Shown here piece after piece: positions 3,063 through 22,929 of a stretch of 27,543 bases of DNA. This DNA is from a virus, in the IMG/VR virus record IMGVR_UViG_3300008448_000489, positions 1-27,543 of that record; one strand, given 5' to 3'. The position numbers and the translations under genes are program-made. The notes under the pieces were generated by a model. The model saw only the letters and a program-made list of their open reading frames with translations, made no database searches and was not told the DNA's origin. Position 1 is the first letter of the stretch. Each line of letters opens with the position of its first letter.

Positions 3063-3776
3063 TTATTCGTATGATTTTTTTTGCCACATATTTTTTTTGT
3101 AATAACCAAGAAATGTATTTTTTGCTGCTAACCAATTTTTTTGACCTTCATCATTTATTGATTCATCTTTTTCTATTTCCCAATTTTCTATTTTAAATGG
3201 AATTATTTGCACAATTGGAGTGCCACGCTTTATTATTCCTTCAAAATCTTTGTTTAAAAAAAATGGATAATTGCCTCTACCGATAGTTTGGTCGGCATCA
3301 ACGATTCCACTCAATGTTAAAAATGGTAAGTCAAAACGATTAAGTGGGTGAGTGGCTAAAAAAGAATATCCTTTTGGGGTTTTAAAAGTATAAGGTATAC
3401 GCCAGTTATATTGGGAAGGCTCACATCCAAATGGAATTGGAATATTTTTTTCATCTAATGTTCTAACTCCAACTGGTTCAGGACTTCCTTGACCCCAACG
3501 CAAATAATGCCTACCTTTTTCATCACTTATTTTAACTTCAATATCACACCAAAGTTCAATGGTATATCCTGCCATCAAAGAATCTAAATAAGGATAACAA
3601 GATTTTACATTTTTATCTACTATATTAGATTCTGCATTGAAAGAATAGTTCCCATAATGTACACCTTTTATTTTTTTATACCATTCAGGAATATATTGTT
3701 TTGCAGGTAAAACATTGTTTAATGCTAAGTCGTTTGATGTGGCATATTTTAATTTATTAACTTTGTTGTTTAGCAT
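3063..3776 (-). CDS. Tail-cluster protein with dUTPase-like fold signature, copy 2 (237 aa)
   Basis: This is a diverged tandem paralogue of the gene just upstream. Shared blocks include TPKGYS (133-138), GIVDAD (157-162), NYPFFLNKDFEG (169-180) and GTPIVQIIPF (185-194). The order P-x-G-Y, then G-[IV]-[IV]-D-x-D, then G-x-x-I-[AV]-Q-[IV]-I matches the core of the dUTPase / dCTP-deaminase fold (beta-clip). The catalytic Tyr of the DYRG motif and the C-terminal glycine-rich motif of real dUTPases are absent, so an enzyme is unlikely. I recall similar uncharacterised proteins in aquatic phages. Its ATG overlaps the previous TAA as TAATG, so the pair is coupled. Base composition is visibly more AT-rich than in the neighbours. 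Confidence 0.6.
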   Translation of the reverse strand: MLNNKVNKLKYATSNDLALNNVLPAKQYIPEWYKKIKGVHYGNYSFNAESNIVDKNVKSCYPYLDSLMAGYTIELWCDIEVKISDEKGRHYLRWGQGSPEPVGVRTLDEKNIPIPFGCEPSQYNWRIPYTFKTPKGYSFLATHPLNRFDLPFLTLSGIVDADQTIGRGNYPFFLNKDFEGIIKRGTPIVQIIPFKIENWEIEKDESINDEGQKNWLAAKNTFLGYYKKNMWQKKSYE

Positions 3777-4462
3777 TATTTATACTCTTTGTTTTGTCTA
3801 AACAATTTTTTATAGCCATCAAAAAAATTATTTCGCATTGCATAAACTTGATTTTTTGCTTTTAAATCATCTTCTTGTGTACCAAATTTTATTTCCCAGT
3901 CATCTCTTTTAAAAGGAATTACTTGAGCAATAGGTGTTCCTGCGGGAATCATTCCTTCAAAGTTTTTATTTTTCATTAAAAATGGAAAATTAACATTAGC
4001 GTTATAGGTATCTGTATCTACAAGACCTTCTAAAATTGAGAAAACACTTTCTCTATGAACTGGCGGTATAAATAAACAAGAGTATCCTTTAGGTGTTTGA
4101 ATACCCCAAGGGTTTATCCATTTAGGAATCATAGAACCATCTGTATCAGGATAAGTAGGTGCCTGCCATTCAGGATGAAATTCTAATGGTTTCCCTTGGG
4201 GCCATTCAAACCAATGTGCATCGTCTTTTATAGATACATAAACATCGCAGTAACTAAAAATTATGTAACCCGCACTTATAGCATCAAAAACAGGCATACA
4301 TTTTTTTATAGTCTGAGCAGTTCTACCTTCACCAGTAGGTTTCTTTTCACTGTTAGCGTATGTGGGCAGTTCTTTTAACCAACCTGGAAAAACATTTTTT
4401 GCTGGTTTAGGTTCAAACCCATCTAAAGGAATAGATAATGTATTGGTGAAGGTTATCTCCAT
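3776..4462 (-). CDS. Tail-cluster protein with dUTPase-like fold signature, copy 1 (228 aa)
   Basis: A 228-residue protein paralogous to the next gene. Alignable blocks are TPKGYS (123-128), GLVDTD (146-151), NVNFPFLMKN (156-165) and GTPIAQVIPF (175-184), which follow the order and spacing of strands in the dUTPase / dCTP-deaminase family. The catalytic Asp-Tyr and the terminal phosphate-binding motif are not present. The N-terminal half (W-rich, with PGWLKELP and a central AGYIIFSYCDVYVSI block) looks like further beta structure. It lies between a fibre-associated gene and the nozzle-like gene, suggesting a virion or assembly role. Function is unknown; the fold proposal is inference from pattern matching by eye. 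Confidence 0.6.
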   Translation of the reverse strand: MEITFTNTLSIPLDGFEPKPAKNVFPGWLKELPTYANSEKKPTGEGRTAQTIKKCMPVFDAISAGYIIFSYCDVYVSIKDDAHWFEWPQGKPLEFHPEWQAPTYPDTDGSMIPKWINPWGIQTPKGYSCLFIPPVHRESVFSILEGLVDTDTYNANVNFPFLMKNKNFEGMIPAGTPIAQVIPFKRDDWEIKFGTQEDDLKAKNQVYAMRNNFFDGYKKLFRQNKEYK

Positions 4463-6605: not shown

Positions 6606-8843
6606 CTAGTATGCGCCCATAATCGTCATGATTATGTCTGCATTGATTGTTGTATCAATAACTCCCCATGAAGGAGTTGTTCCATCTGTTGTTAGATATT
6701 TACCTGAGTTGCCATTTTGTGCTGGAAGTCCTGCGTAATACTCGCTAAATACAATATCAGTAGTTCCAATAACAATCGGACTTACTATTGTTGCGTTAAT
6801 AAATGACTTATTAATATTTACTGTACCGCCAGAGCAGAATAACTCATCACCATTTTTTACTTCACCTGATGGGCTATTATCGTAGTCGGTTGCGCGAGTC
6901 AAAACCCAATTTGTTGAACCATCACCAATGGTTGTTAATGTATAGATACCATTTTGAGTTTGCGTTGTTTGATTCTTTACAAGAACACGAGCATTAATAG
7001 CAGGGCTTACACCATCTATGCTAAATGCTGCTTGTGTACCAGAATTTGTAAGTGTTGCACCTACGCCAGAAGTTCCATTGTTATAGGTAGCAGTTAGGTT
7101 TGCTGTTGTAGCAGCGACTACTGATTCATGGTAATTAATCTGAGTAACTACTGTATCAACATACTGTTTGGTGGCAAGACCAAGGTTTGTAGTTGGGTCT
7201 GCGCTTGCTAATCCACCAGAAAGCGTTAATCCTGTAATTGTTGTGTAAGTAGTACCCGAGTCAATGGTTGTACTACCAAGAGTAGGCGCTGAATAGATGG
7301 TAGTTGTGGCAATCTGAACCCAAGCGCTTCCTGACCACACATACATGTTATTAAGAACTGAGTTCCAATAGATAGCACCAACAAGGAGTGTGTTGCCATC
7401 ATTGTCTAAAGATGGAGGAGATGATTTGCTACCAAGATAACGGTCATCAAAATCATCATAAGTTGTTGCAGCACTGGAGGCTGAAGTGGCTGCGCTTGAT
7501 GCACTTGTTGCTGCTGCAGTTTGAGAAGTTAATGCACTAGATGCCGATGTTGCAGCACTGGAGGCTGAAGTAGCGGCTGCTGTTGCAGATGTTGCTGCTG
7601 AATTAGCAGATGTTAATGCTGATGATGCAGAAGTACTTGCACTATTAGCGCTAGTTAAGGCAGATGAAGCAGATGTTGCTGCGCTAGTAGCAGATGTTTC
7701 TGCAGATGATGCAGAAACAGCAGCAGCAGTTGTAGAAGCAGCAGCGCTTGCAGCGCTAGTTGCTGCTGCAGTGGCACTATTAGAAGCAGAGGTAGCCGAT
7801 GTTGCAGCAGCAGCAGCATAATCTGCAATAGCAGCAACAGAAGCAGCAGCAGTCGTTGCACTATTTGCAGCACTGGTTGCACTTGTTGCTGCTGCAGTGG
7901 CGCTCGCAGCAGCGCTTGTAGCGCTGGTAGCAGCAGCCGTGGCTGAATTAGCAGCCGAAGTAGCGGAAGTGGCTGCAGCACTAGCACTAGTTGCTGAGGC
8001 ACTTGCAGAAGCAGCAGATGCTGTTGCACTGTTTGCTGCTGATGTAGCACTAGTTGCAGCAGATGTAGCGCTCGTTGCAGCAGATGTTGCTGATGTTTGT
8101 GCATCTGTTAATGGACCAAAAAAAGCATCAACATAAGAAACTGGTGCAGCAGATGAACTTGTTAACCCTGCGCTGGATAGACCAGTAATGACTGGCGAGC
8201 CAGAGATTGTTGGGCTTACGAAGGTAGCAGCAGAGGCTGTAAAAGAACCTGTAAATGTGCTTGATACAATCGTAGAAGCAGTAATAGTTGAACTGGTTAC
8301 TGTGGCTGATGTAAATGTACCGCCAGTAAATGTTGCGCTAGTTGCAGTAAATGCACCAGTTACCGTACCGCTTGAATAAACTTTATTAGTAAGGGTCTGA
8401 GCCTTAGTAGTACCAACTACTACACCATCACCTGTTTCTAAGCCATGTACATGGGTCTGGTTAGCAAGTCCCAAAATCGCAGAATCTGTGTCATAGCCAC
8501 GAGAGGCAATATGAGTCTGGGATTCACGGAAGTCACGACCTGATACACCGTGTCTAACAACGGCTCCTGCTGAGTGAGCAACGCCTTGGGTTCCATCAAC
8601 ACCGCGAGTTACAACAAGTGTTGTGCTACTACCAGAGGTAACAGTGACAACTTCTTCTTTAGAAGTATCAGGGTCAACAATAAGTGTATATGGATATGAA
8701 GTTGGAAATCCGCTTACAGATGCAACGATAAACGAACTGTTGGATGCACCCTGTGCTTGGGCTGCAATGGATGATTGGAGCGAAGTTTCTACTGCGGTTG
8801 ACGAGTAGTACCGCGCTGGGGAGCCTGGGTCGCCTGCTGCCAT
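6606..8843 (-). CDS. Tail fibre with Ala/Ser/Thr repeat shaft (745 aa)
   Basis: Residues about 25-115 are a small beta domain with the motif RGVDGTQGVAHSAGAVV, common at fibre and adaptor interfaces. A Thr/Ser beta stretch follows (about 160-235), then about 215 residues (245-460) of nearly pure A/S/T repeats built on SAATSAT, which fits a trimeric coiled-coil shaft. After it come a WSGSAWV module (about 495-505), a TKQYVD helix (about 553) typical of phage fibres, and a C-terminal beta head with LVKNQTTQTQNGIYTL. The protein should attach to the short tail and reach the host surface. AAGG lies 6 bases before the ATG, which follows the adaptor stop by 8 bases. Confidence 0.82.
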   Translation of the reverse strand: MAAGDPGSPARYYSSTAVETSLQSSIAAQAQGASNSSFIVASVSGFPTSYPYTLIVDPDTSKEEVVTVTSGSSTTLVVTRGVDGTQGVAHSAGAVVRHGVSGRDFRESQTHIASRGYDTDSAILGLANQTHVHGLETGDGVVVGTTKAQTLTNKVYSSGTVTGAFTATSATFTGGTFTSATVTSSTITASTIVSSTFTGSFTASAATFVSPTISGSPVITGLSSAGLTSSSAAPVSYVDAFFGPLTDAQTSATSAATSATSAATSATSAANSATASAASASASATSASAAATSATSAANSATAAATSATSAAASATAAATSATSAANSATTAAASVAAIADYAAAAATSATSASNSATAAATSAASAAASTTAAAVSASSAETSATSAATSASSALTSANSASTSASSALTSANSAATSATAAATSASSAATSASSALTSQTAAATSASSAATSASSAATTYDDFDDRYLGSKSSPPSLDNDGNTLLVGAIYWNSVLNNMYVWSGSAWVQIATTTIYSAPTLGSTTIDSGTTYTTITGLTLSGGLASADPTTNLGLATKQYVDTVVTQINYHESVVAATTANLTATYNNGTSGVGATLTNSGTQAAFSIDGVSPAINARVLVKNQTTQTQNGIYTLTTIGDGSTNWVLTRATDYDNSPSGEVKNGDELFCSGGTVNINKSFINATIVSPIVIGTTDIVFSEYYAGLPAQNGNSGKYLTTDGTTPSWGVIDTTINADIIMTIMGAY
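7460..8110 (-). repeat. Degenerate repeat tract coding the fibre shaft
   Basis: The tract consists of imperfect repeats of GCA/GCT, AGT/TCA and ACA/ACT codons that encode the A/S/T shaft of the fibre. Units such as GCAGCAGATGTTGCTG (plus-strand sense) recur with synonymous variation. Recombination or slippage here would change shaft length in frame because the unit is a multiple of three. Confidence 0.8.
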
Positions 8844-13269: not shown

Positions 13270-14778
13270 TTATATTGGTGTAGCGGTTGAGCGAAGTGAT
13301 GATTCAGTGAGTCCACCTCTTGCACTAAAGCGTGCGGATTCACGGGCTGCTCTGCGCTCAGAAGCAAGTCCTGCTGTTATGTCGTCACCAACAACAGTAC
13401 TCACTGCTTCAAGTTCTGAGTATGGTTGATTTTCAATTTGCGCTAGACGACTTTGAGTATTAGCAAGTTGACGAGCGCGTTTAAACTCAAGAGCAATTTG
13501 ATTAAAGGTAGCATCACCAACTGCTGGTACTAAATTAGCGGCTTCTACTGAAGTCATGAATGATTTAACAAAGCCAGCATTTACAGCAGCAGCACCAATT
13601 TCAGAAGTGCGAACTTGTTTCTTAATAGCATCAAGACCTGCTTTAGGATTGAGCATGTAGGAAATAACTCCACTTTCATCAACTTCAGGATAATATGTTT
13701 TAAAAACTGCCATTACATCTGGATTTTCTCTGACTCGCGTAGCAGCCAAATTAACTCGCTCCTCAAACTCACGAGGAGAAACTTCATTTGATATGTATAA
13801 GCCAAGATTGTTACGATTTCCAAGGATTGCAGTATCTAAGCCGTAGGCTCGCAAAGTTTGTAAATAACCTTTTTCGTTAGAAATATAAGTTGCTTCATTT
13901 ATTGCTCGCCCTACTTTACGCAAAGTTTCCATGCCTGGAAAACGCTCTTTATATCCTTTTGTTTCTGGAAGTTCTAGTCTTATCTGGGCCATTGTATAGT
14001 CTTTTTTAATCATATCATCAAGTTCATTAATGATTCCATCAGACTCTTTAAAACCAAGGCTTATTAAAGTATCTTTAAATTCTTGCGAAGCGGTCATGCG
14101 TGATTGCTTTGCAATTTGTTCAGCAGTTAAAAAGTTTTTTTGTTGGTCTTGCATTAACTTTAGTTCTGCTCTAAGGGCATCAATTGATGCGGTTATTTCA
14201 GGGTTAGAAGTTGTTACGGTAGTCGTACTTTGTACTTCTACGCCATCTTTGTAATTCTTACCTAAGTAAATTCCTGTATAAACGCCGCCATTTTTAAGAA
14301 GCACTCCTGCTGGGCTAAAAGTAAAAGTTTCACCAACAGAATTATCAGGAGGAGGTGTACTAGAATTATCAGGAGGAGGTGTACTAGAACTACCAGGAGG
14401 AGGTGTAGTATAAGCGCCAGTTTTAGTATCTATATTTCCGCCAGCCCTCTTTGCTGCTCTGGCGGCATTTATAGCAGCGCCAATAGCGCTGCCTGTTGCG
14501 CCTTTTGCAAGTGCTGCTTTAATAACTGCATCTTCTTCTGCTTTAGTTAAATACTCTGAAGCACCGTATACTGCAAATGAGTCGCCATAAACATTTGCAT
14601 CATTTATGCCACCGCGAGATTCTATGTATTCCTCTGCAGTCATACCTCTATCAGCAGCCTCTTTTATGAAGTAAGGTCTACTTGCAACTTCTTTTTCCAC
14701 CTTAGCATCCCTGACAAATTCAGGGTTTGGTGTCAAATCAGTCCTACCTATAAAATAACCGAAAGGTTTTTTAGCCAT
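13270..14778 (-). CDS. Virion-associated protein with proline-rich linker (502 aa)
   Basis: The N-terminal part (1-115) includes FGYFIGRTDLTPNPEFV and an Ala-rich helix. A Pro/Ser linker follows (about 127-146, repeated SSTPPPDN), then a short module YTGIYLGKNYKDGVEV (about 166-182) that also occurs in the neighbouring 509-aa protein. The rest is helical and contains KERFPGM (about 276-283), GYLQTLRAYGLD and ISNEVSPREFEERVNLA, blocks that I associate with virion proteins of actinobacterial phages lying between portal and capsid genes. It may be an internal or ejected protein; the function is unknown. It starts 2 bases after the previous stop. Confidence 0.65.
   Translation of the reverse strand: MAKKPFGYFIGRTDLTPNPEFVRDAKVEKEVASRPYFIKEAADRGMTAEEYIESRGGINDANVYGDSFAVYGASEYLTKAEEDAVIKAALAKGATGSAIGAAINAARAAKRAGGNIDTKTGAYTTPPPGSSSTPPPDNSSTPPPDNSVGETFTFSPAGVLLKNGGVYTGIYLGKNYKDGVEVQSTTTVTTSNPEITASIDALRAELKLMQDQQKNFLTAEQIAKQSRMTASQEFKDTLISLGFKESDGIINELDDMIKKDYTMAQIRLELPETKGYKERFPGMETLRKVGRAINEATYISNEKGYLQTLRAYGLDTAILGNRNNLGLYISNEVSPREFEERVNLAATRVRENPDVMAVFKTYYPEVDESGVISYMLNPKAGLDAIKKQVRTSEIGAAAVNAGFVKSFMTSVEAANLVPAVGDATFNQIALEFKRARQLANTQSRLAQIENQPYSELEAVSTVVGDDITAGLASERRAARESARFSARGGLTESSLRSTATPI
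14341..14412 (-). repeat. Three tandem 24-bp units in the Pro/Ser linker
   Basis: Units at 14341-14364, 14365-14388 and 14389-14412 encode S-T-P-P-P-[DG]-[NS]-S. The first two are identical and the third has several substitutions, which suggests a recent duplication of an older unit. Confidence 0.85.
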
Positions 14779-14780
14779 TA

Positions 14781-16310
14781 TTACCCCTGAAATCCAAACA
14801 TTTTAGCAAGGTCAAGTGCTGTGTTGCTGTAAACTTCTTTAGCGTTACGAGTGTATTGCCATAGTGGGTCTGCTTTTAATGATTTTGTAAAATCAGCAAA
14901 TGTGCGAGCATTGCCAGTTTCGCTATCAATTACTTTATTCATTAAGTCATTCCAAGTAATTGCAGTGCTATCCACTTCTAGTAAGTTAGCCATTTGACTG
15001 CGGTAACTATTTGTAACTTCATATAGGCTGCGACCAGCCTGAAGTGATGCAAGAAATGGTTTATTTTGTGGGGCATCGTATGCCATTTGTTTAACACTAT
15101 TAATCCAATACTGAACATCTCTGCCGTCTAATGGGTCAAGCAATGATGTATTAATAGCGTTCTTTACATTGTTATCTAAAGACATGCCATAAAGATAAGC
15201 AGTCTGGTTAACGCGGTCTAGGTATGAACCAAGGGTTCCTCCGCCTGTAAAGATAATTTCACTTTTGGTTGATAAGTAGTTTTCTAACTCATCATCGGTC
15301 CAATTATTCTTAATTGTTTCAAGAGCGATACCCTTTATTAATTCGGTATTATCAATAACCTTACCTGTAACTGGGTCTATGCTTCTTATTTGAACACCAA
15401 GCGCTTCTAGTTTGCCTGCGATAGAAGTTATATTATTGCTTATTTTTTCAGCAAAGGTAGCAGCATTGCGTGGGTCATTAGATTCAAGAAAGAATTGGCG
15501 AAGGCTTGGAAATGTGTTTTGCCACCAACTTGTACCCTTGAGGGCTTCCATAAAAGTATTTTCATCCCAGCCTTGTTTGAGTGCTTTGTCAAACAAAGCA
15601 TCAATTTGAGCCTTTTGTGTTTTATCTTCTAAGGATAAAAATGTTGTACGAAGCCAAGAAACCCACATTGTTTTTTTGGCTATATCTTCTTCTTCTTTGG
15701 CTTTTGCTGCTGCTGCTTTCGCGGCTGTTTCAGCATCTGTTGCTGCTTTAGCATCTGCTGCTGCTTTGGCTGCTGCTGCTGCTTCTGCTGCTTTTGCAGC
15801 CTCAGTTGAATCGGCCTTGACAAGAATTCCATTTTTGTATTCTTTGCCTTTGTATAAACCAGTAAATGGGTTTCCATTTAACTCTAGTGGTTTGTCTTTA
15901 GTGCCTGTTCCAGTGTAAACATCTTTAGGTTTTATCTTAGGCATTGTAGTGCTGCCTTCAAAATAACTTTGAGTTCCAGGTACTAAAGATGAACCATCTG
16001 GACCATAACGAGGAACAGGAGTTTTACCCAAAGCAATTTCACGCTCATATTGCTCTTTGGCAGCAGCAGCATTTTTACTAAGTTTTGCTTTGTCTGCTGC
16101 GATTTTATCGGCAGTACGCTGTGCATCAATGGCTTTATTGGCTTTATCAAATTCTTTTTTTGCTAAAGCCAATGCAGCAGTTGCTTTTTTAAATTTTTCT
16201 GAACCAGGTTTATTGCTTTTAATTATTTGTTCATTTTGATAAATAGCAAGGCCAAAAAACTTAAGCGCTTCTTGTGGAGTTTCAAAATTCTTAGAATAGC
16301 GTTCTGCCAT
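14781..16310 (-). CDS. Virion-associated protein with Ala/Lys coiled coil (509 aa)
   Basis: Residues about 1-95 are Lys/Ala-rich helices. A disordered part leads to the module FTGLYKGKEYKNGILV (about 147-162) shared with the 502-aa neighbour. A long alanine coiled coil (EAAKAAEAAAAAKAAADAKA onward, about 166-205) is followed by a helical domain with SWLRTTFLSLEDK, TSWWQNTFPSLRQF (about 258-271) and a C terminus ending LAKMFGFQG. I know the WWQN-TxPSxRQF block from other phages with actinobacterial hosts, where the role is unassigned. The position between the giant protein and the scaffold suggests an internal virion protein. Its ATG overlaps the previous TAA. Confidence 0.65.
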   Translation of the reverse strand: MAERYSKNFETPQEALKFFGLAIYQNEQIIKSNKPGSEKFKKATAALALAKKEFDKANKAIDAQRTADKIAADKAKLSKNAAAAKEQYEREIALGKTPVPRYGPDGSSLVPGTQSYFEGSTTMPKIKPKDVYTGTGTKDKPLELNGNPFTGLYKGKEYKNGILVKADSTEAAKAAEAAAAAKAAADAKAATDAETAAKAAAAKAKEEEDIAKKTMWVSWLRTTFLSLEDKTQKAQIDALFDKALKQGWDENTFMEALKGTSWWQNTFPSLRQFFLESNDPRNAATFAEKISNNITSIAGKLEALGVQIRSIDPVTGKVIDNTELIKGIALETIKNNWTDDELENYLSTKSEIIFTGGGTLGSYLDRVNQTAYLYGMSLDNNVKNAINTSLLDPLDGRDVQYWINSVKQMAYDAPQNKPFLASLQAGRSLYEVTNSYRSQMANLLEVDSTAITWNDLMNKVIDSETGNARTFADFTKSLKADPLWQYTRNAKEVYSNTALDLAKMFGFQG

Positions 16311-16708
16311 TATACTTCTGTACTCCTAACATCTTGTTCAATAGCCTTATAGATAGCATCTAAATAACGATTTTCTTGCCGATTACGAAATTCAGGAGTT
16401 TTTTCAACAGCAGAAACAATAGCAGCCTGACGACCTGTTACATCGGTATCTTGTGATTGATTTAAAAAGATGTTGATAGCCTTGGTGCGTTCAGCGCCAA
16501 CAGCATTACGACCAAGTATTTGTTGATACACACTTTGCACATAAGCATTGGCATCTTGGGTAGTAAATACAGGGCCTTTATTTTGTTGTACATTGCCGCC
16601 CATAGATGCGTATTTCTCCATAAGTGCTGCAAGGTCTATACCGCCTGTGGGTTTATCTGTTCCAGCAGGTGTGCCTGATTCTGTCTTAGGCTTTTCATCT
16701 TTTGCCAT
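16310..16708 (-). CDS. Virion-associated protein with DUF4214-like segment (132 aa)
   Basis: After a disordered start the protein has VQSVYQQILGRNAVGAERTK (about 53-72) and later SAVEKTPEFRNRQENRYLD. The spacing of Y-x-x-[IL]-LGR ... G-x-x ... T-P-E-F recalls DUF4214, a helical repeat found in surface and phage proteins, though the match is partial and by eye. It overlaps both the 2073-aa gene and the 509-aa gene as TAATG and is therefore part of the same translational unit. Confidence 0.62.
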   Translation of the reverse strand: MAKDEKPKTESGTPAGTDKPTGGIDLAALMEKYASMGGNVQQNKGPVFTTQDANAYVQSVYQQILGRNAVGAERTKAINIFLNQSQDTDVTGRQAAIVSAVEKTPEFRNRQENRYLDAIYKAIEQDVRSTEV

Positions 16709-19700
16709 TAAACTACCACCGTATCATTGATAAAGTAACGATTAAGGAATTGTTCAAACTCTGGACTTTCAGCAATTAGTTGTTGTTTAATTTGGTCAAG
16801 CACATAAACAACATCCCGATTGCTTTGAGCCGATAACATTGCAGAACCACCAATAGCATCACGCTGTTTAAGTATAGAAGCAATTTGGTCGCGTGCATCA
16901 AGATATACAGCCATAGCCTTAACAACTGGGCGGTCACCATTTTGTGCCATCCAAGCCTTATCACTCAAAGCCTTTTTAAGTACAAGTGCACGGCGCTCAT
17001 ACTTACCACGGTCTGGTGAAATATACTCTGAGTACCAGTCAAAGTTTTCTTCTGCCTGTGAGCGAGTCCATAATTGCTTAGCGCCATTAAGAAGTTCCAT
17101 GCGTGGGTCATTATCTGACACAATGCCGTTTTGAATCTTATAGGTATTAATCTGTCCCATTAATGAATTGAACTGAGTCCAACCACGCTTAATGTTTGCA
17201 TCACGGAGTAGTTCTTCAGGGCTACGATTTTGGCGATATGTGTTCTTTGAGCCAGGATATGCACCTTGGCGATACTGCCATTGATATGCAGCCTGACTAA
17301 AGGTGTATTGACCATCAAAGTCATTAGCCAAGAAACCGATTAGTTCTGGATTGTCAGAAGCCTCAGCCTCTGCCATAAGCCCACGGAACTTCTTTAGGTT
17401 CTTAACAGTGCCCATATTAGCCTCAAGGCTGCCAGGTGATTTAGATAAACTAACAGTAGCCTCAAAGTAATCTGGATACATCTCAAGGAACTTTGCTTCT
17501 GCTTCGCCTGGACCATATTGGTTTAGGAATTGACGATATGTTTGCTGATAAAAGTCCATCTCTGGGCTAACAGCAAATGGCATTGTCAAGGAACTGAAAG
17601 CACGAAGCATAAAGAACTTGTTTGTCTTTTCAGTAATTTCATCTAGCGTAGGTTCATCTGTACGCCTACCACTATTAAAGTTGTAAGCCTCATAACGAAG
17701 CATCTGGTTGAAAGTACGGACATATAGTTCGTCTTGTGTCCACATAGAGCGTAGACGGCGCAAGGCTGCTGGGGCAAACAAATCTGTTGCACTTTGTGGC
17801 ATACCTGCAGGGAAGAAAGGTCTTGCTGCATCTTCAAGTTCTGGGCGATTGCGTAGAATCAAATAGGTTGGCAGCACTGCATAAGGACCAAATCCTGGAT
17901 TTCCAGGTTGTCCTTGGGTAATAACATCTAAAGATGATAATGGGATATTAACTGTCTTAAAAGCATTATTAGCAATTTCTCGCCATTGCTTTGGTAGTGA
18001 GTCAATAAACCCTTGTGGAACTTGTACTACTAGATTTGCGTATGTGCCTTCTGATAACTTCTTAGCATCAGTAATGCGGTTACCATCTTGGTCAATAACG
18101 GTTTGACCATTAACTAATTGAGCAATGGTTCTAGCAGCAGTAGTAACTGCTTGTGGATTCTCAGCCACAATGCCTGACCATCGTTTAATGGTATTTTCAT
18201 AGGCTGCATAGAACGGGAACATTAACTGCATTACTTGGCTAGATGATGCACGAGTACGGCGTACAATCGTAAAGAGCGTTTGCTCAACTGTACGGCGAGA
18301 ATCTTCTCTAGCGCCACGGATGGCTGAATTAATTTCCTCAGCAGTAAGTTTATCTCCGCCTTTAGCCCTAGCAATGTTCTGTATGTTAACCCTAACTTGG
18401 CGATTATAGGTTGCTCTAGCCAATGGATGACGAGCAAATACATCTTCAGGTAGTGAACCTAAAAAGCGCATTACACGGCGGTTAAAGGTATCAATAAGGC
18501 GTTCTTGGTCACGAAACTCTTTACTTGTTGTAACAAGTAGTCCATTAATATCTGGCAGATTCTCTGGATTATCGCCAAAGCGATTACGCAAGAAGTTCTG
18601 TAATTCTCCGCCAGTTAATGGTTTACCTTCTGGACCTGCAGTGCTAAAGAACAAGGCTGTTTCTTCGTCTGGTAAATATAATTTAACAGCACCACGGGTA
18701 ATGTTAATTTTCTCTAGCAAGTCCTCATTGAGTTCTCCACCCTTAAGGGCTGTTAAACCAAAGGCTTGACGAGGCGTGGTGTAAGTATCGTTGGCGTATA
18801 GGCGACCTTCTGGGGTTCTGGTAAACCAACTTAAAATATCTTGGTCTGTTTCACCATCAAGAACCTTACGAACTATTGGGTCCATAATCCCTGTTTCAGG
18901 GTCACGGAAGTGCATGTTCAAAACATTTGACCAAGCCTCAAAATAACGAGGGTCATTATTTTTAACTGTGCTTACTGTGCGTGCACCGATACCAGTTGAG
19001 AACGCCATTTCTTGTGTGCCAATAAGGGCGTTCCAAGTATCTTCAGCAGATGTACGACCCATAAACCATGTAGCATCTTGGAATATTTCTGGAATATTAT
19101 AGTTATAGCCTTCGGCTTCAATATCCATGTAGCCATAACCAGTGCGTTGCTTAATAGCATTTGATTCAGCGCGACCAATTCGTGCGTTTAAACGACTTGA
19201 AATGTCATCAATATACGCATGTGACATGGTGTAAAGACGAGCCAAGTTTTCAGCAGCATCCTCAACGCCATTATTAATCATGGCATCAGCATTTTCCTTG
19301 GTGTAATAAGGAGATACTGGGCGCTCTTGTTGGCGCATTGCTTTACGAGCAGCAGTGCGAGCAAGGCGGCGTTGCTTAGGTGTAGCCATTGACTGTTCAA
19401 GCATTGGTAAATCTTCAGCAGCCTGAACTGCTGCACGCTCTTGCATTTGTGTAATAGAGCGTTCTACAGAGCGTTTACGCCCTGCGCTAGATACTGCTTC
19501 TGGTAAAACGATGTTTGATACACCACCAGCGCGAGCATCATCTTGAACAACTGCCCGACCAAAACCTTTTTCACGCATATATTGAGTTACAGAATCATCA
19601 GCGTTTTGCCAACCTTTGGACTTAACCCATGCTTTGTAGTTTGCAAATTTGCCACCAAAAGCAGCCTCACGCAAATCTAATGGAACATCTGCCCATTTGG

Positions 19701-22700
19701 TTAAATACAAAGCCTCGCCATATACACGCACTGGTGTTGGCTTATTAACTACACCTTTAACGCGGAATACTGAGCGAGCAAAAATTTCTGGTTCTACGGT
19801 AAGTACGCCTTCTTCAGCAAGGCGAATCTGATTCCAGTCTAGTGCTTCAACTTTACGCCATCCACGCCGAGTTCTCATTTCAACAACTTTGCCAGCGTTC
19901 TTGGCAGCAATCATATCTGTTAGCAGGTCATCTGCTGCTTTTTTAACTCGTTCTGTTATCGGGCGAGCGCCTCGGCTAATGCCAGCGCCCATTCCTGCTT
20001 CTCCTGCTCGGACATTTGAGAGTAATTCTTCGGGACTTGTACGAACAAGCGTTCCTTCGCCGATGAGTTCATCGGGGCTTCTGTCTGCATTTGTTGCTGC
20101 TGCTTTTCCACCTGTACCACCCGTTTCAATTTCTTTGCCCGCTTTGACATCCCAAACACTTATTTGGTCGCGGAACTCTGGACTACCAAGTCTAACAGCA
20201 GCCTCTTGACTTGTCACATTGTCTGACAAATCTAAATATATCTGCTTGTCTTTTTTATTAAACCATCCACCAAAATACAAATCTGGGTTTTGTTTAAACG
20301 CTTCTTGGTTTTCATCTAAAAACTTTTTAATTGCTTGTGCAAGTTCTTCTTTGTCTTTGGCTGGTAAAACTTGTCCACCGCCAACACGAGCAACCATGAA
20401 GCCCTGTTTTGGTGAATCAAAGGTTGTATTCTTTACTGAGAACCCACCCTTAATGGCGCGATTAGCAAGTTCTTCTTCTAGCGTTAAAGGTCCTTGCCAA
20501 ACTTCTTTGCCTGGTCTTTCTTCAGGTTTCATGCCTAAACGACCTGGGCGACCAGTTGGGGTTTCTAGGTAGTTCTCAGCAGCATGAAAAGTAAAGCCTT
20601 CAGAATAACGAGCAGCAATGGATGGAGATGCTGATGTTGCAAGTACTCTTGTTTCGTCAAGTTTAAACGCTGCATCTGCACTACCGTGGTATAAGGTTAC
20701 AGATTCTAAATCTGAAAGTACGCCACGAAGGGTGCGAATTTCATCTTCAACTGTTAATGGTCCGACATCTCCCGTAAGGCGTATTCTAAATACATCTTGT
20801 TCAATATCGCGGATACGGTCTGATACAGCCTTAGCAAGTTGCTTACGGCTCATGTCAATGGCACGAAGTTTATCTACCTCAGACATGAAGGCATATTGCA
20901 TAGTTGGAATATCATCTATACGACCAGCCATAACATTGAACTGGTCAATAAAACGATTAAACCCAACTTTACGGTTATTAAAAAAGCGTTTTACTCCATC
21001 GGCTCCGCCTGCTGCAACCATTGCTGGTAGAGCAAAACCTTTAGCCAACATGGATAGTTGCGCTTCAGTAATGTTACGAACCGTATAACCAAGGCGCATA
21101 AGCACCGAAGTCTTAAATATGTCATTAATAGTTGCTAAAGCGGATAAACCTTTTTGTGTGCGGAAAGTTAAATCTTCTACATTAAGTCCATCTAGGATGC
21201 CAGGAAGGATTCTTTCGTGAGAATCAATGGCATGCTTTAGTTTACGCAAGTCTGCAATGATGACAGTGTTTGCTGATTCACGCTGTAGAACTGGAGCAAT
21301 AGCATGAACTACTTGACCATTTTCTAAATAAGAAACAAAGCCTTGGTCGCGGTGTTGCTTAATACGAGATACACGGCGATAGTCAAAGATTGCATATAAC
21401 TTATCAATAGTTTGCTGGTCATAATTTGGGAACAAGGTAGCCAAAGCAACCTTTTCCGCCTGTTGGATAATTGCATTGCGCTCACCAGTTGATGCTGCAG
21501 CAAGGTATCTATCTGCAAATGCAGCACCTGTTGGTCCAAAACGACCTGCTGAAAGTTCATTTGCTTCACGCAAGAAGGCATTGAACTCAATATAAGAATC
21601 GCCATCATTAACATTAAATACACCGCTTGGTAGTTCTTTTGTAAAGAAGTTAACTACCTTAACAACTGGATGAAGGCTTGTCTTTTGGAAAGTTACGCTA
21701 TCTGCTTCAGCAAATACTGCTTGTGCTTTGGAGCGTGACTTCTGAGCCAGTTTACCTTCCCAAGGTCCACGGCTAAATCCATATTTTAATTGACCACCTG
21801 TGCGGGCTGTGTTGAGAGCCTCAGCAAAACGCTGGTCATAAGCATCACTTGCTTCATCGGTAAGTTTAGTAATGTAATCGCCAGCAGCCTTGTTGTATTC
21901 AGGAGATGTAAGCAAATCACCGTCTGTCTTACCCTCAAGGTATTGACGATGTTGATGTGGTACATCGCTGAGGTTATTCATTACAAGTGCTGCTTCTGCA
22001 TCTTGTGATGCAATCTTTGATACTGATTCAGCATCGCGGTACATAACAGCACGGAAAGTATCTACAACATCCTGTTCTGTGCTGGCACGACCAAAGAGGT
22101 ATGCCATAGCATCAGGATTTGTTACTTTCTTTTTGCGCCAGTATTCATACTGTTCACGAGCATTACTGTTTGCAAGAAAATTAATATCTGAAAGACCTTC
22201 ACCTTTACCCTCAAGGGCTTGAGTAAGGATGTTGTCTAACCTATCCTCGGTCATTGCAAATTTACCAAATACTGCACGGGCTGTCTTGCCAGAAATTTGG
22301 TCAAGCATTGGTGCCTTGGCAGCAATTACTGCGCCTTTGCCTAAGAAACCAGCAAATGTTAATGGGTCAATAATTGTTGATGCAGTTAAATCGCCAAAAC
22401 CTGAAAGGATTTTTCCTGTGTATTGGTTACTAAAAGCAATATCTCTATCTTCTTGATTAAATACATCAAAGCCAGCAGAAAGAAATCTAAGGTTATTATC
22501 GGTCCAATCTTGAAACCAACCACTTTTATCACCAGAGTTACGCCCTGGAGAAAGCGTTGATAAGGCAGCCTGCGTGATAGAAATGTTTTCTTTTTCAGAT
22601 TCTACACGCGCTGTATAATCAGCATAAGATTCACCTGGAGCCTTAAACTTGTTATACATAAAAGGTTGCTCAAGGATTGTTTCTGCACCTTCACGGCGTA

Positions 22701-22929
22701 CTTTTCCGCCAAGTTCGTACGATGCTTCTCCAACGGCAAATAATCCGCCTACAGCAGCACGAACTGGAGTGGTTGCAACCTTAACTGTATTCTTAACAAA
22801 GTTAACACCATCTATGTACCACGGGTCATCGTTACTTCCCGAAGTTGCAATGTCTTTAAATAGTCCTGGTAAGCCTGTAAAGTCAACTGCTGACTTTGCC
22901 ATCTTACCTAAATTTTGAACCCAACTCAC
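16708..22929 (-). CDS. Giant polyvalent virion protein with ADP-ribosyltransferase-like motifs (2073 aa)
   Basis: The GTG start at 22929 forms a GTGA overlap with the previous gene and has GAGG 8 bases upstream. The N terminus (about 40-75 and 180-205) has amphipathic or hydrophobic helices. At 744-775 VTLYHGS and, 14 residues later, ATSASPSIAARY resemble the first two motifs of ADP-ribosyltransferases found in phage polyvalent proteins; a later block, about 1116-1145 (KGFGRAVVQDDARAGG, then VLPEAV), resembles their C-terminal strand. Between them is a segment with GFMVARVGGG (about 842) and ISVWDVKAGKEIETGG (about 921). Near 1570 MFPFYAAYENTIKRW resembles the LPD38-type domain of large virion proteins. 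A protein packed in the capsid and ejected with DNA is the best guess. Confidence 0.72.
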   Translation of the reverse strand: MSWVQNLGKMAKSAVDFTGLPGLFKDIATSGSNDDPWYIDGVNFVKNTVKVATTPVRAAVGGLFAVGEASYELGGKVRREGAETILEQPFMYNKFKAPGESYADYTARVESEKENISITQAALSTLSPGRNSGDKSGWFQDWTDNNLRFLSAGFDVFNQEDRDIAFSNQYTGKILSGFGDLTASTIIDPLTFAGFLGKGAVIAAKAPMLDQISGKTARAVFGKFAMTEDRLDNILTQALEGKGEGLSDINFLANSNAREQYEYWRKKKVTNPDAMAYLFGRASTEQDVVDTFRAVMYRDAESVSKIASQDAEAALVMNNLSDVPHQHRQYLEGKTDGDLLTSPEYNKAAGDYITKLTDEASDAYDQRFAEALNTARTGGQLKYGFSRGPWEGKLAQKSRSKAQAVFAEADSVTFQKTSLHPVVKVVNFFTKELPSGVFNVNDGDSYIEFNAFLREANELSAGRFGPTGAAFADRYLAAASTGERNAIIQQAEKVALATLFPNYDQQTIDKLYAIFDYRRVSRIKQHRDQGFVSYLENGQVVHAIAPVLQRESANTVIIADLRKLKHAIDSHERILPGILDGLNVEDLTFRTQKGLSALATINDIFKTSVLMRLGYTVRNITEAQLSMLAKGFALPAMVAAGGADGVKRFFNNRKVGFNRFIDQFNVMAGRIDDIPTMQYAFMSEVDKLRAIDMSRKQLAKAVSDRIRDIEQDVFRIRLTGDVGPLTVEDEIRTLRGVLSDLESVTLYHGSADAAFKLDETRVLATSASPSIAARYSEGFTFHAAENYLETPTGRPGRLGMKPEERPGKEVWQGPLTLEEELANRAIKGGFSVKNTTFDSPKQGFMVARVGGGQVLPAKDKEELAQAIKKFLDENQEAFKQNPDLYFGGWFNKKDKQIYLDLSDNVTSQEAAVRLGSPEFRDQISVWDVKAGKEIETGGTGGKAAATNADRSPDELIGEGTLVRTSPEELLSNVRAGEAGMGAGISRGARPITERVKKAADDLLTDMIAAKNAGKVVEMRTRRGWRKVEALDWNQIRLAEEGVLTVEPEIFARSVFRVKGVVNKPTPVRVYGEALYLTKWADVPLDLREAAFGGKFANYKAWVKSKGWQNADDSVTQYMREKGFGRAVVQDDARAGGVSNIVLPEAVSSAGRKRSVERSITQMQERAAVQAAEDLPMLEQSMATPKQRRLARTAARKAMRQQERPVSPYYTKENADAMINNGVEDAAENLARLYTMSHAYIDDISSRLNARIGRAESNAIKQRTGYGYMDIEAEGYNYNIPEIFQDATWFMGRTSAEDTWNALIGTQEMAFSTGIGARTVSTVKNNDPRYFEAWSNVLNMHFRDPETGIMDPIVRKVLDGETDQDILSWFTRTPEGRLYANDTYTTPRQAFGLTALKGGELNEDLLEKINITRGAVKLYLPDEETALFFSTAGPEGKPLTGGELQNFLRNRFGDNPENLPDINGLLVTTSKEFRDQERLIDTFNRRVMRFLGSLPEDVFARHPLARATYNRQVRVNIQNIARAKGGDKLTAEEINSAIRGAREDSRRTVEQTLFTIVRRTRASSSQVMQLMFPFYAAYENTIKRWSGIVAENPQAVTTAARTIAQLVNGQTVIDQDGNRITDAKKLSEGTYANLVVQVPQGFIDSLPKQWREIANNAFKTVNIPLSSLDVITQGQPGNPGFGPYAVLPTYLILRNRPELEDAARPFFPAGMPQSATDLFAPAALRRLRSMWTQDELYVRTFNQMLRYEAYNFNSGRRTDEPTLDEITEKTNKFFMLRAFSSLTMPFAVSPEMDFYQQTYRQFLNQYGPGEAEAKFLEMYPDYFEATVSLSKSPGSLEANMGTVKNLKKFRGLMAEAEASDNPELIGFLANDFDGQYTFSQAAYQWQYRQGAYPGSKNTYRQNRSPEELLRDANIKRGWTQFNSLMGQINTYKIQNGIVSDNDPRMELLNGAKQLWTRSQAEENFDWYSEYISPDRGKYERRALVLKKALSDKAWMAQNGDRPVVKAMAVYLDARDQIASILKQRDAIGGSAMLSAQSNRDVVYVLDQIKQQLIAESPEFEQFLNRYFINDTVVV

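Follow-up and report, generated by a model that had tools for sequence, protein, structure and literature searches.

A giant podophage-type protein with an exchangeable cargo slot nested in an ADP-ribosyltransferase-like domain

The virus record IMGVR_UViG_3300008448_000489 of IMG/VR, analysed over positions 1 to 27,543 (27,543 nucleotides, hereafter the window), encodes a giant protein of 2073 residues in which a domain resembling ADP-ribosyltransferases (ARTs), here called the frame, is split by an insert. We find that part of this insert is a cargo slot, the contents of which are swapped between near-identical phages, and this is the main feature that a preliminary description made from the letters of the window had overlooked. 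The likely explanation, in our view, is a giant internal virion protein of the ejection type from a podophage, with a nested architecture in which a backbone holds an optional ART similar to AcrIF11 and the ART holds the exchangeable slot; the protein would be packaged and injected, delivering both ART and cargo. In the earlier picture, polyvalent and MuF proteins suggested a mixing of injected effectors, with MuF toxins varying at the protein end and evidence from rather distant genomes. Near-identical phages that differ mainly in one fixed internal slot are natural near-isogenic pairs, in which the role of an injected effector is directly testable.

Results

Identity across 56 full-length relatives, taken in bins of 25 residues, is 40-93% along the giant protein (40-90% over residues 1-739) apart from window residues 798-997, which are ~10% identical and half gapped. 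Residues ~795-996 are the sole hypervariable segment, and blastn breakpoints of the slot against relatives L018 and L026 fall at residues ~795 and ~996. The preliminary description had noted ~330 residues inserted into the ART; the insertion is real but has two parts, the exchangeable cargo and a conserved long helix with an Hfq/SH3-like small beta barrel at residues ~993-1058, which occurs in all relatives and matches Hfq-like barrels in structure (Z ~4.4, ~60 residues aligned).

The relatives come from two scans of viral contigs, the first giving 33 loci. The query of the second was the ART frame from a relative whose slot is near-empty; it gave 79 entries, on contigs partly overlapping those of the first. 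Both frame halves were located by hidden Markov models in nearly every relative. Residue counts refer to 62-65 distinct relatives and the tree to 62 non-redundant backbones. All close relatives are metagenomic contigs. The ART frame had no match in 50,697 phage records (tblastn) and the whole giant protein none in genome contigs, hence viral metagenomes and distant Streptomyces podophages are the only sources from which we know the group. The window record (27.5 kb) may be a fragment, given relatives of up to ~40 kb and one contig of 76 kb.

Six cargo states were found between the frame halves. Counted over the 62 backbones, these are a coiled coil of ~52 residues (19), a near-empty slot with a linker of 1-10 residues (14), an ART exoenzyme of 200-219 residues (13), a ParB-like domain of ~165 residues (10), the type present in the window (3) and a phrog_2579 type of ~145 residues (3). 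The exoenzymes match PF03496 in all 13 cases (best 4e-16), with R and ExE of their R-STS-ExE motifs invariant and STS nearly so. The ParB-like cargoes share an invariant EGNHR and are matched weakly by PF02195 in 7 of 11 cases (best 0.015) and by several ParB phrogs at ~0.02-0.3. The phrog_2579 type matches that phrog, 'ParB C-terminal domain', at 9e-31 and has a homologue in the stand-alone gene gp129 of Mycobacterium phage Elite2014. The window type is shared by the window, L002, L092 and copies thereof; in the window protein it contains VWDVKAGKEIETGG at residues 925-938 and matches phrog_3170 at residues 822-903. Its homologues include small open reading frames (a stand-alone protein of 119 residues in Fusobacterium phage phiKSUM; gp75 of Gordonia phage Fryberger), a 433-residue Mycobacterium protein and a part of gp34 of Synechococcus phage P60, which is annotated as an internal virion protein.

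Two side observations concern particular loci. Those with ART cargo (L003, L008, L063 and others) hold two ART-type domains of different clades, an R-S-E type nested inside the AcrIF11-like one. In L006, a close relative with the window type of cargo, an in-frame TAA at 6755-6757 just after the cargo interrupts the giant reading frame and leaves the second half of the ART frame in an open stretch of its own; the protein may be truly truncated, or the assembly may be at fault.

The exchange is evident between close relatives. L040 (near-empty) and L062 (ParB-like) have in common 5.6 kb before the slot, at 99.1% identity, and 4.1 kb after it, at 97.9%, and between these flanks their slots hold 28 and 514 bp of DNA, respectively. 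L029 (near-empty), L007 (ParB-like) and L008 (ART exoenzyme) are 95-98% identical outside the slot, and the same pattern of recent swaps is seen in the pairs L085/L087, L068/L073, L056/L079, L042/L050 and L065/L067. The tree of N-terminal backbones requires no fewer than 31 switches of cargo class (mean for shuffled labels, 36.4), and for the ART cargo supported branches alone force at least 11 changes. Some pairs resemble each other more closely in cargo than in backbone (89% versus 56% in L008/L090), which indicates that cargo moves between lineages. Given that the junctions are clean and in frame, we infer homologous recombination through the conserved flanks. The G+C content of ParB-like and exoenzyme cargoes is 0.31-0.41 compared with 0.40-0.46 for their loci in the swapped pairs examined. 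No gene co-varying with the cargo was seen within several kb in the swapped pairs, hence no immunity partner is apparent. Metagenomic contigs, the source of every close relative, might instead yield differing cargoes as assembly chimeras, but this is extremely improbable: different metagenomes contain the same cargo in an identical or nearly identical context (for example L042/L043, L052/L053/L054 and L085/L086/L089), the junctions are in frame and fall at the same site, and class changes occur throughout the tree.

The motifs that the preliminary description had quoted as a split ART-like signature are present at the residues it gave (Table 1), and two AlphaFold2 models support the signature. 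The structure prediction it had proposed for residues 700-1160 was run on window residues 695-1165 (471 residues, composite alignment) and gave a predicted local distance difference test score (pLDDT) of 73, with frame strands mostly above 80-90 and the cargo core at ~72-86. Its best long matches are two ART toxins, MbcT with a Z of 5.9 over 113 residues and ParT with a Z of 5.3, which align to both halves around the cargo (model residues 49..460, window ~743-1154), although a Foldseek search of the PDB with the whole model returned only noise; the fold of the near-empty relative is clearer. That second model, of the frame alone from relative L042 with a nearly empty slot, reached a pLDDT of 85.7 and a predicted template modelling score of 0.68. 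Its top VIA match is AcrIF11 (6kyf; Z 8.7, 113/137 residues, root-mean-square deviation 3.6), followed by residues 1418-1597 of the cyanophage A4 pre-ejectosome protein (9k3a_B, Z 6.2), MbcT (6.2) and ParT (5.7). The VIA list is without any ART-PolyVal structure, an absence that carries no evidential weight. In the models, the N-terminal half consists of strands 744-748 and 763-766, helix 769-776 and strand 779-783.

In profile comparison each half also aligns to the AcrIF11 family, separately and in the same catalytic register. With hhalign, the N-terminal half gave 26.8 and the C-terminal half 24.9, compared with 18.6 for the best of 60 column shuffles and 15.5 for the reversed profile; the probability was only 6-13%, but the pairwise E was 0.002-0.007 and the scores lay above all shuffles. 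The AcrIF11 sequence used as query matched PDB chain 6KYF in full. In this register H748 corresponds to H7, Y775 to H37 and D1130/D1131 to D115/E116, with A764 in place of F26, and the acid pair is reached ungapped from GY/GF. The key residues of AcrIF11 are H-F-H-D, of which D115 is essential and D115A inactive (PMC12421852); from the alignment, H37 and F26 would be an H and the F of this set.

Across relatives the frame reads LYHGS...GRPGRLG, a variable stretch, and then DMIAAKNAGK...VFRV...PVRVYGEALYLTKW...KGFGRAVVQDD...VLPEAV. H748 (62/62) and Y775 (64/64) are invariant and S766 (63/64), D1130 (64/65) and D1131 (64/65) nearly so. Since this holds across 62-65 relatives while the slot is only ~10% identical, the motifs are not a matter of chance. 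On the models, we take the frame to be a domain of ART fold with AcrIF11 as its nearest relative.

Several results weigh against an active injected ART with an effector in its slot. The Z of 8.7 for AcrIF11 barely exceeds values that unrelated models attain, Foldseek found no PDB match for the frame models below E 0.001, and none of the sequence family models recognises the frame. Strand-2 position 764 is A in 53, S in 9 and V in 2 of 64 relatives and never aromatic, and hence the frame may be an ART that is dead or has been modified. An effector is not obligatory in the slot, as the coiled-coil and near-empty versions show, and no activity is known for the window's own cargo, a putative effector. 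Other searches agree with the lack of family matches: the frame profile had no match among PDB sequences, and the RES domain PF08808 (MbcT, ParT) had none in the frame at E<=10 with control genomes positive, which leaves a likeness of fold only. The family guess of the preliminary description, ART-PolyVal, lacks support, given that PF18760 had no match to the frame even at E<=10, the strand-2 aromatic is absent and AcrIF11/RES-type ARTs are nearer.

The missing family and Foldseek matches and the modest Z would also fit an accidental likeness of motifs, in which an unrelated structural domain carries a hypervariable surface loop selected for variation and not an effector slot. We hold this to be very unlikely, and already weakened, because the four best fold matches include two ART toxins and are headed by an anti-CRISPR that ADP-ribosylates, the profile match in catalytic register lies well above shuffles, and the cargoes are recognisable catalytic-type domains and not loop variants.

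Whether the ART-like frame acts as an enzyme is a separate matter. Of the features of H-Y-Y-[E/D] ARTs, it has the strand-1 histidine (H748) and an aromatic or histidine in the helix after strand 2 (Y775), and it does not have the strand-2 aromatic (A764). In most H-Y-[E/D] ARTs that aromatic stacks on nicotinamide, and with its loss ART activity is plausible but unproven. A degenerate, or 'dead', ART was at first the leading reading, since both this aromatic and a GYDG-type aspartate are absent; it was dropped as such because the AcrIF11 comparison placed the acid later, as the nearly invariant DD pair. It is doubtful, though possible, that the frame is a pseudoenzyme scaffold that displays or carries a cargo which alone acts. 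The strand-2 aromatic is gone in all relatives, relative L057 is without the acid pair, and the full canonical motifs are kept by the cargo ARTs and not by the frame. However, H748, Y775 and D1130/D1131 are invariant or nearly so while much of the domain drifts, and the frame is intact in near-empty relatives, which would be needless for a mere carrier. We regard the frame as probably, though not certainly, active.

The giant-protein gene has the portal/terminase genes on one side and the scaffold/major capsid genes on the other. A PHROGs search of the window placed the portal (phrog_104) and TerL (phrog_38) upstream; downstream are proteins of 132, 509 and 502 residues and then two that, from a reading of their sequences, appear scaffold-like and capsid-like. 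The whole 2073-residue protein gave no useful match in Pfam, NCBIfam or PDB sequences, and phrog_10618 matches its residues 1738-2070. Gene order in the window is that of Streptomyces phage RosePharie, a Manuelvirus; electron microscopy shows its congener Abafar to be a podovirus (PMC11536984). RosePharie gp9, a giant protein of the Beephvirinae, likewise lies downstream of the portal, and its backbone is collinear on both sides, but it is without the whole ART-plus-cargo module (window residues ~750-1255), which makes the module optional. The term 'virion protein' in the preliminary description comes from gene position and not from observation, and we keep it as a probable assignment.

Discussion

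The protein would be packaged in the head and enter the host with the DNA, as suggested by the position and size of its gene, the parallels in P60 and A4 and the precedent of polyvalent proteins (PMC5512222, PMC9503650). The injected ART would then act at once on a host or defence protein, using NAD+, and the slot cargo would supply a second, exchangeable function alongside it. Recombination in the conserved flanks would swap the cargo as a cassette, and hence the early effectors brought in would differ between close relatives. A virion-type protein with an ART similar to AcrIF11, in place before phage gene expression, would suit the delivery of an anti-defence enzyme. A further idea, speculative and rather unlikely, is that the ART is a re-targetable injected enzyme which cargo exchange re-targets or supplements, in a cassette system that matches the injected effector to local host defences.

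AcrIF11 (PDB 6KYF) shares with the window ART the fold, HGS in strand 1, the acid pair, the helix position of H37 (Y775 in the window) and a variable insert in the same interval. It differs as a free protein of 132 residues made in the cell, with 15% identity, whereas the window ART is split inside a 2073-residue virion-type protein, is without the strand-2 aromatic and contains both a swappable cargo and the insert of helix and barrel. In AcrIF11 a variable helical region (residues ~51-107) has been proposed to set specificity (PMC12421852). The slot, between the early and the closing strands, occupies that interval, and the cargo might correspondingly be a target-recognition insert of which the swapping alters what the ART modifies. 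This is unlikely, given that several cargoes are themselves enzymes or enzyme-like (PF03496 in 13/13; ParB-like), cargo homologues exist as stand-alone genes and near-empty versions exist.

Polyvalent phage proteins with ARTs (Iyer et al. 2017, PMC5512222) are likewise giant, multidomain and encoded among virion genes, and combine ARTs with unrelated domains such as ParB-like ones. The window group agrees in having unrelated activities in one polypeptide in the relatives (the ART-like frame with ParB-like, R-S-E ART or phrog_2579 cargo) and virion genes on either side. It differs in that PF18760 and PF18857 have no match in the window protein, the latter in a search in which no control genome matched either; the LPD38-like helix that the preliminary description had seen near residue 1570 was thus not confirmed. 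In the window group one domain is nested in another, and near-identical phages exchange it at a single fixed position, which the portion of PMC5512222 consulted does not describe.

MuF polymorphic toxins (Jamet et al. 2017, PMC5576092) are alike in that a conserved carrier associated with the virion bears toxin-type domains, including ARTs, that can be interchanged. In these the variable toxin is C-terminal and accompanied by an immunity gene, whereas the variable part of the window group is internal; the giant protein had no Pfam match to the MuF domain. The R-S-E exoenzyme cargoes of L003, L008 and other relatives match PF03496 and phrog_832, the family of phage T4 Alt. Alt is packaged in the head and injected. 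It is a separate protein, however, and the slot in the window itself holds no R-S-E ART. The pre-ejectosome protein of cyanopodophage A4 (PDB 9K3A chain B) holds the second-best fold match within a solved podophage structure, but with a Z of just 6.2 and no sequence match in a profile search of PDB chains, and we know of no cargo slot in it.

Table 1 Features of the giant protein in the window.
Feature	Residues	Window positions	Strand	Basis or remark
Giant protein open reading frame, GTG start	2073 residues	22929..16708	-	Probable internal virion (ejection) protein
N-terminal backbone	1-739	20713..22929	-	Conserved; collinear with RosePharie gp9
ART N-terminal half	740-794	20548..20712	-	AlphaFold2 models, VIA, AcrIF11-family profile match
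LYHGS	746-750	20680..20694	-	H748 = AcrIF11 H7
ATSASPSIAARY	764-775	20605..20640	-	Y775 = AcrIF11 H37; A764 at place of AcrIF11 F26 (strand-2 aromatic)
Exchangeable cargo slot	~795-996	19942..20547	-	blastn breakpoints versus L018/L026, cargo catalogue, identity
Window cargo domain (FGGWFNKKDKQIYLD...VWDVKAGKEIETGG)	~825-940	20110..20457	-	Related to phrog_3170 and small stand-alone phage proteins
Helix and barrel, between cargo and second ART half	~997-1062	19744..19941	-	AlphaFold2 models, structure matches
ART C-terminal half	~1063-1160	19450..19743	-	AlphaFold2 models, structure and profile matches
KGFGRAVVQDD	1121-1131	19537..19569	-	D1130/D1131 = AcrIF11 D115/E116
VLPEAV, closing strand	1141-1146	19492..19509	-	Model and profile
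C-terminal backbone	1256-2073	16711..19164	-	Collinear with RosePharie gp9 842-1589; phrog_10618

Other genes in the window

All genes mentioned here lie on the minus strand. Two neighbouring proteins of ~500 residues (13270-14778 and 14781-16310) have in common the motif NG..(Y/F)TG(I/L)Y.GK.YK(D/N)G and low-complexity linkers, and correspond in position to two RosePharie proteins annotated as minor tail proteins. A protein of 745 residues (6606-8843) resembles tail fibres and contains a long Ala/Ser/Thr-rich repeat (ATSA...). The 176-residue product of 313-843 carries the motifs HNTGLAVDLTHD and HLHVS, resembles endolysins of the M15 peptidase type and matches phrog_32486, a phrog of unknown function. 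In the tail-gene region, the adjacent proteins of 237 and 228 residues (3063-3776 and 3776-4462) look like tandem paralogues, with the starts IPEWYKK and FPGWLKE and similar endings.

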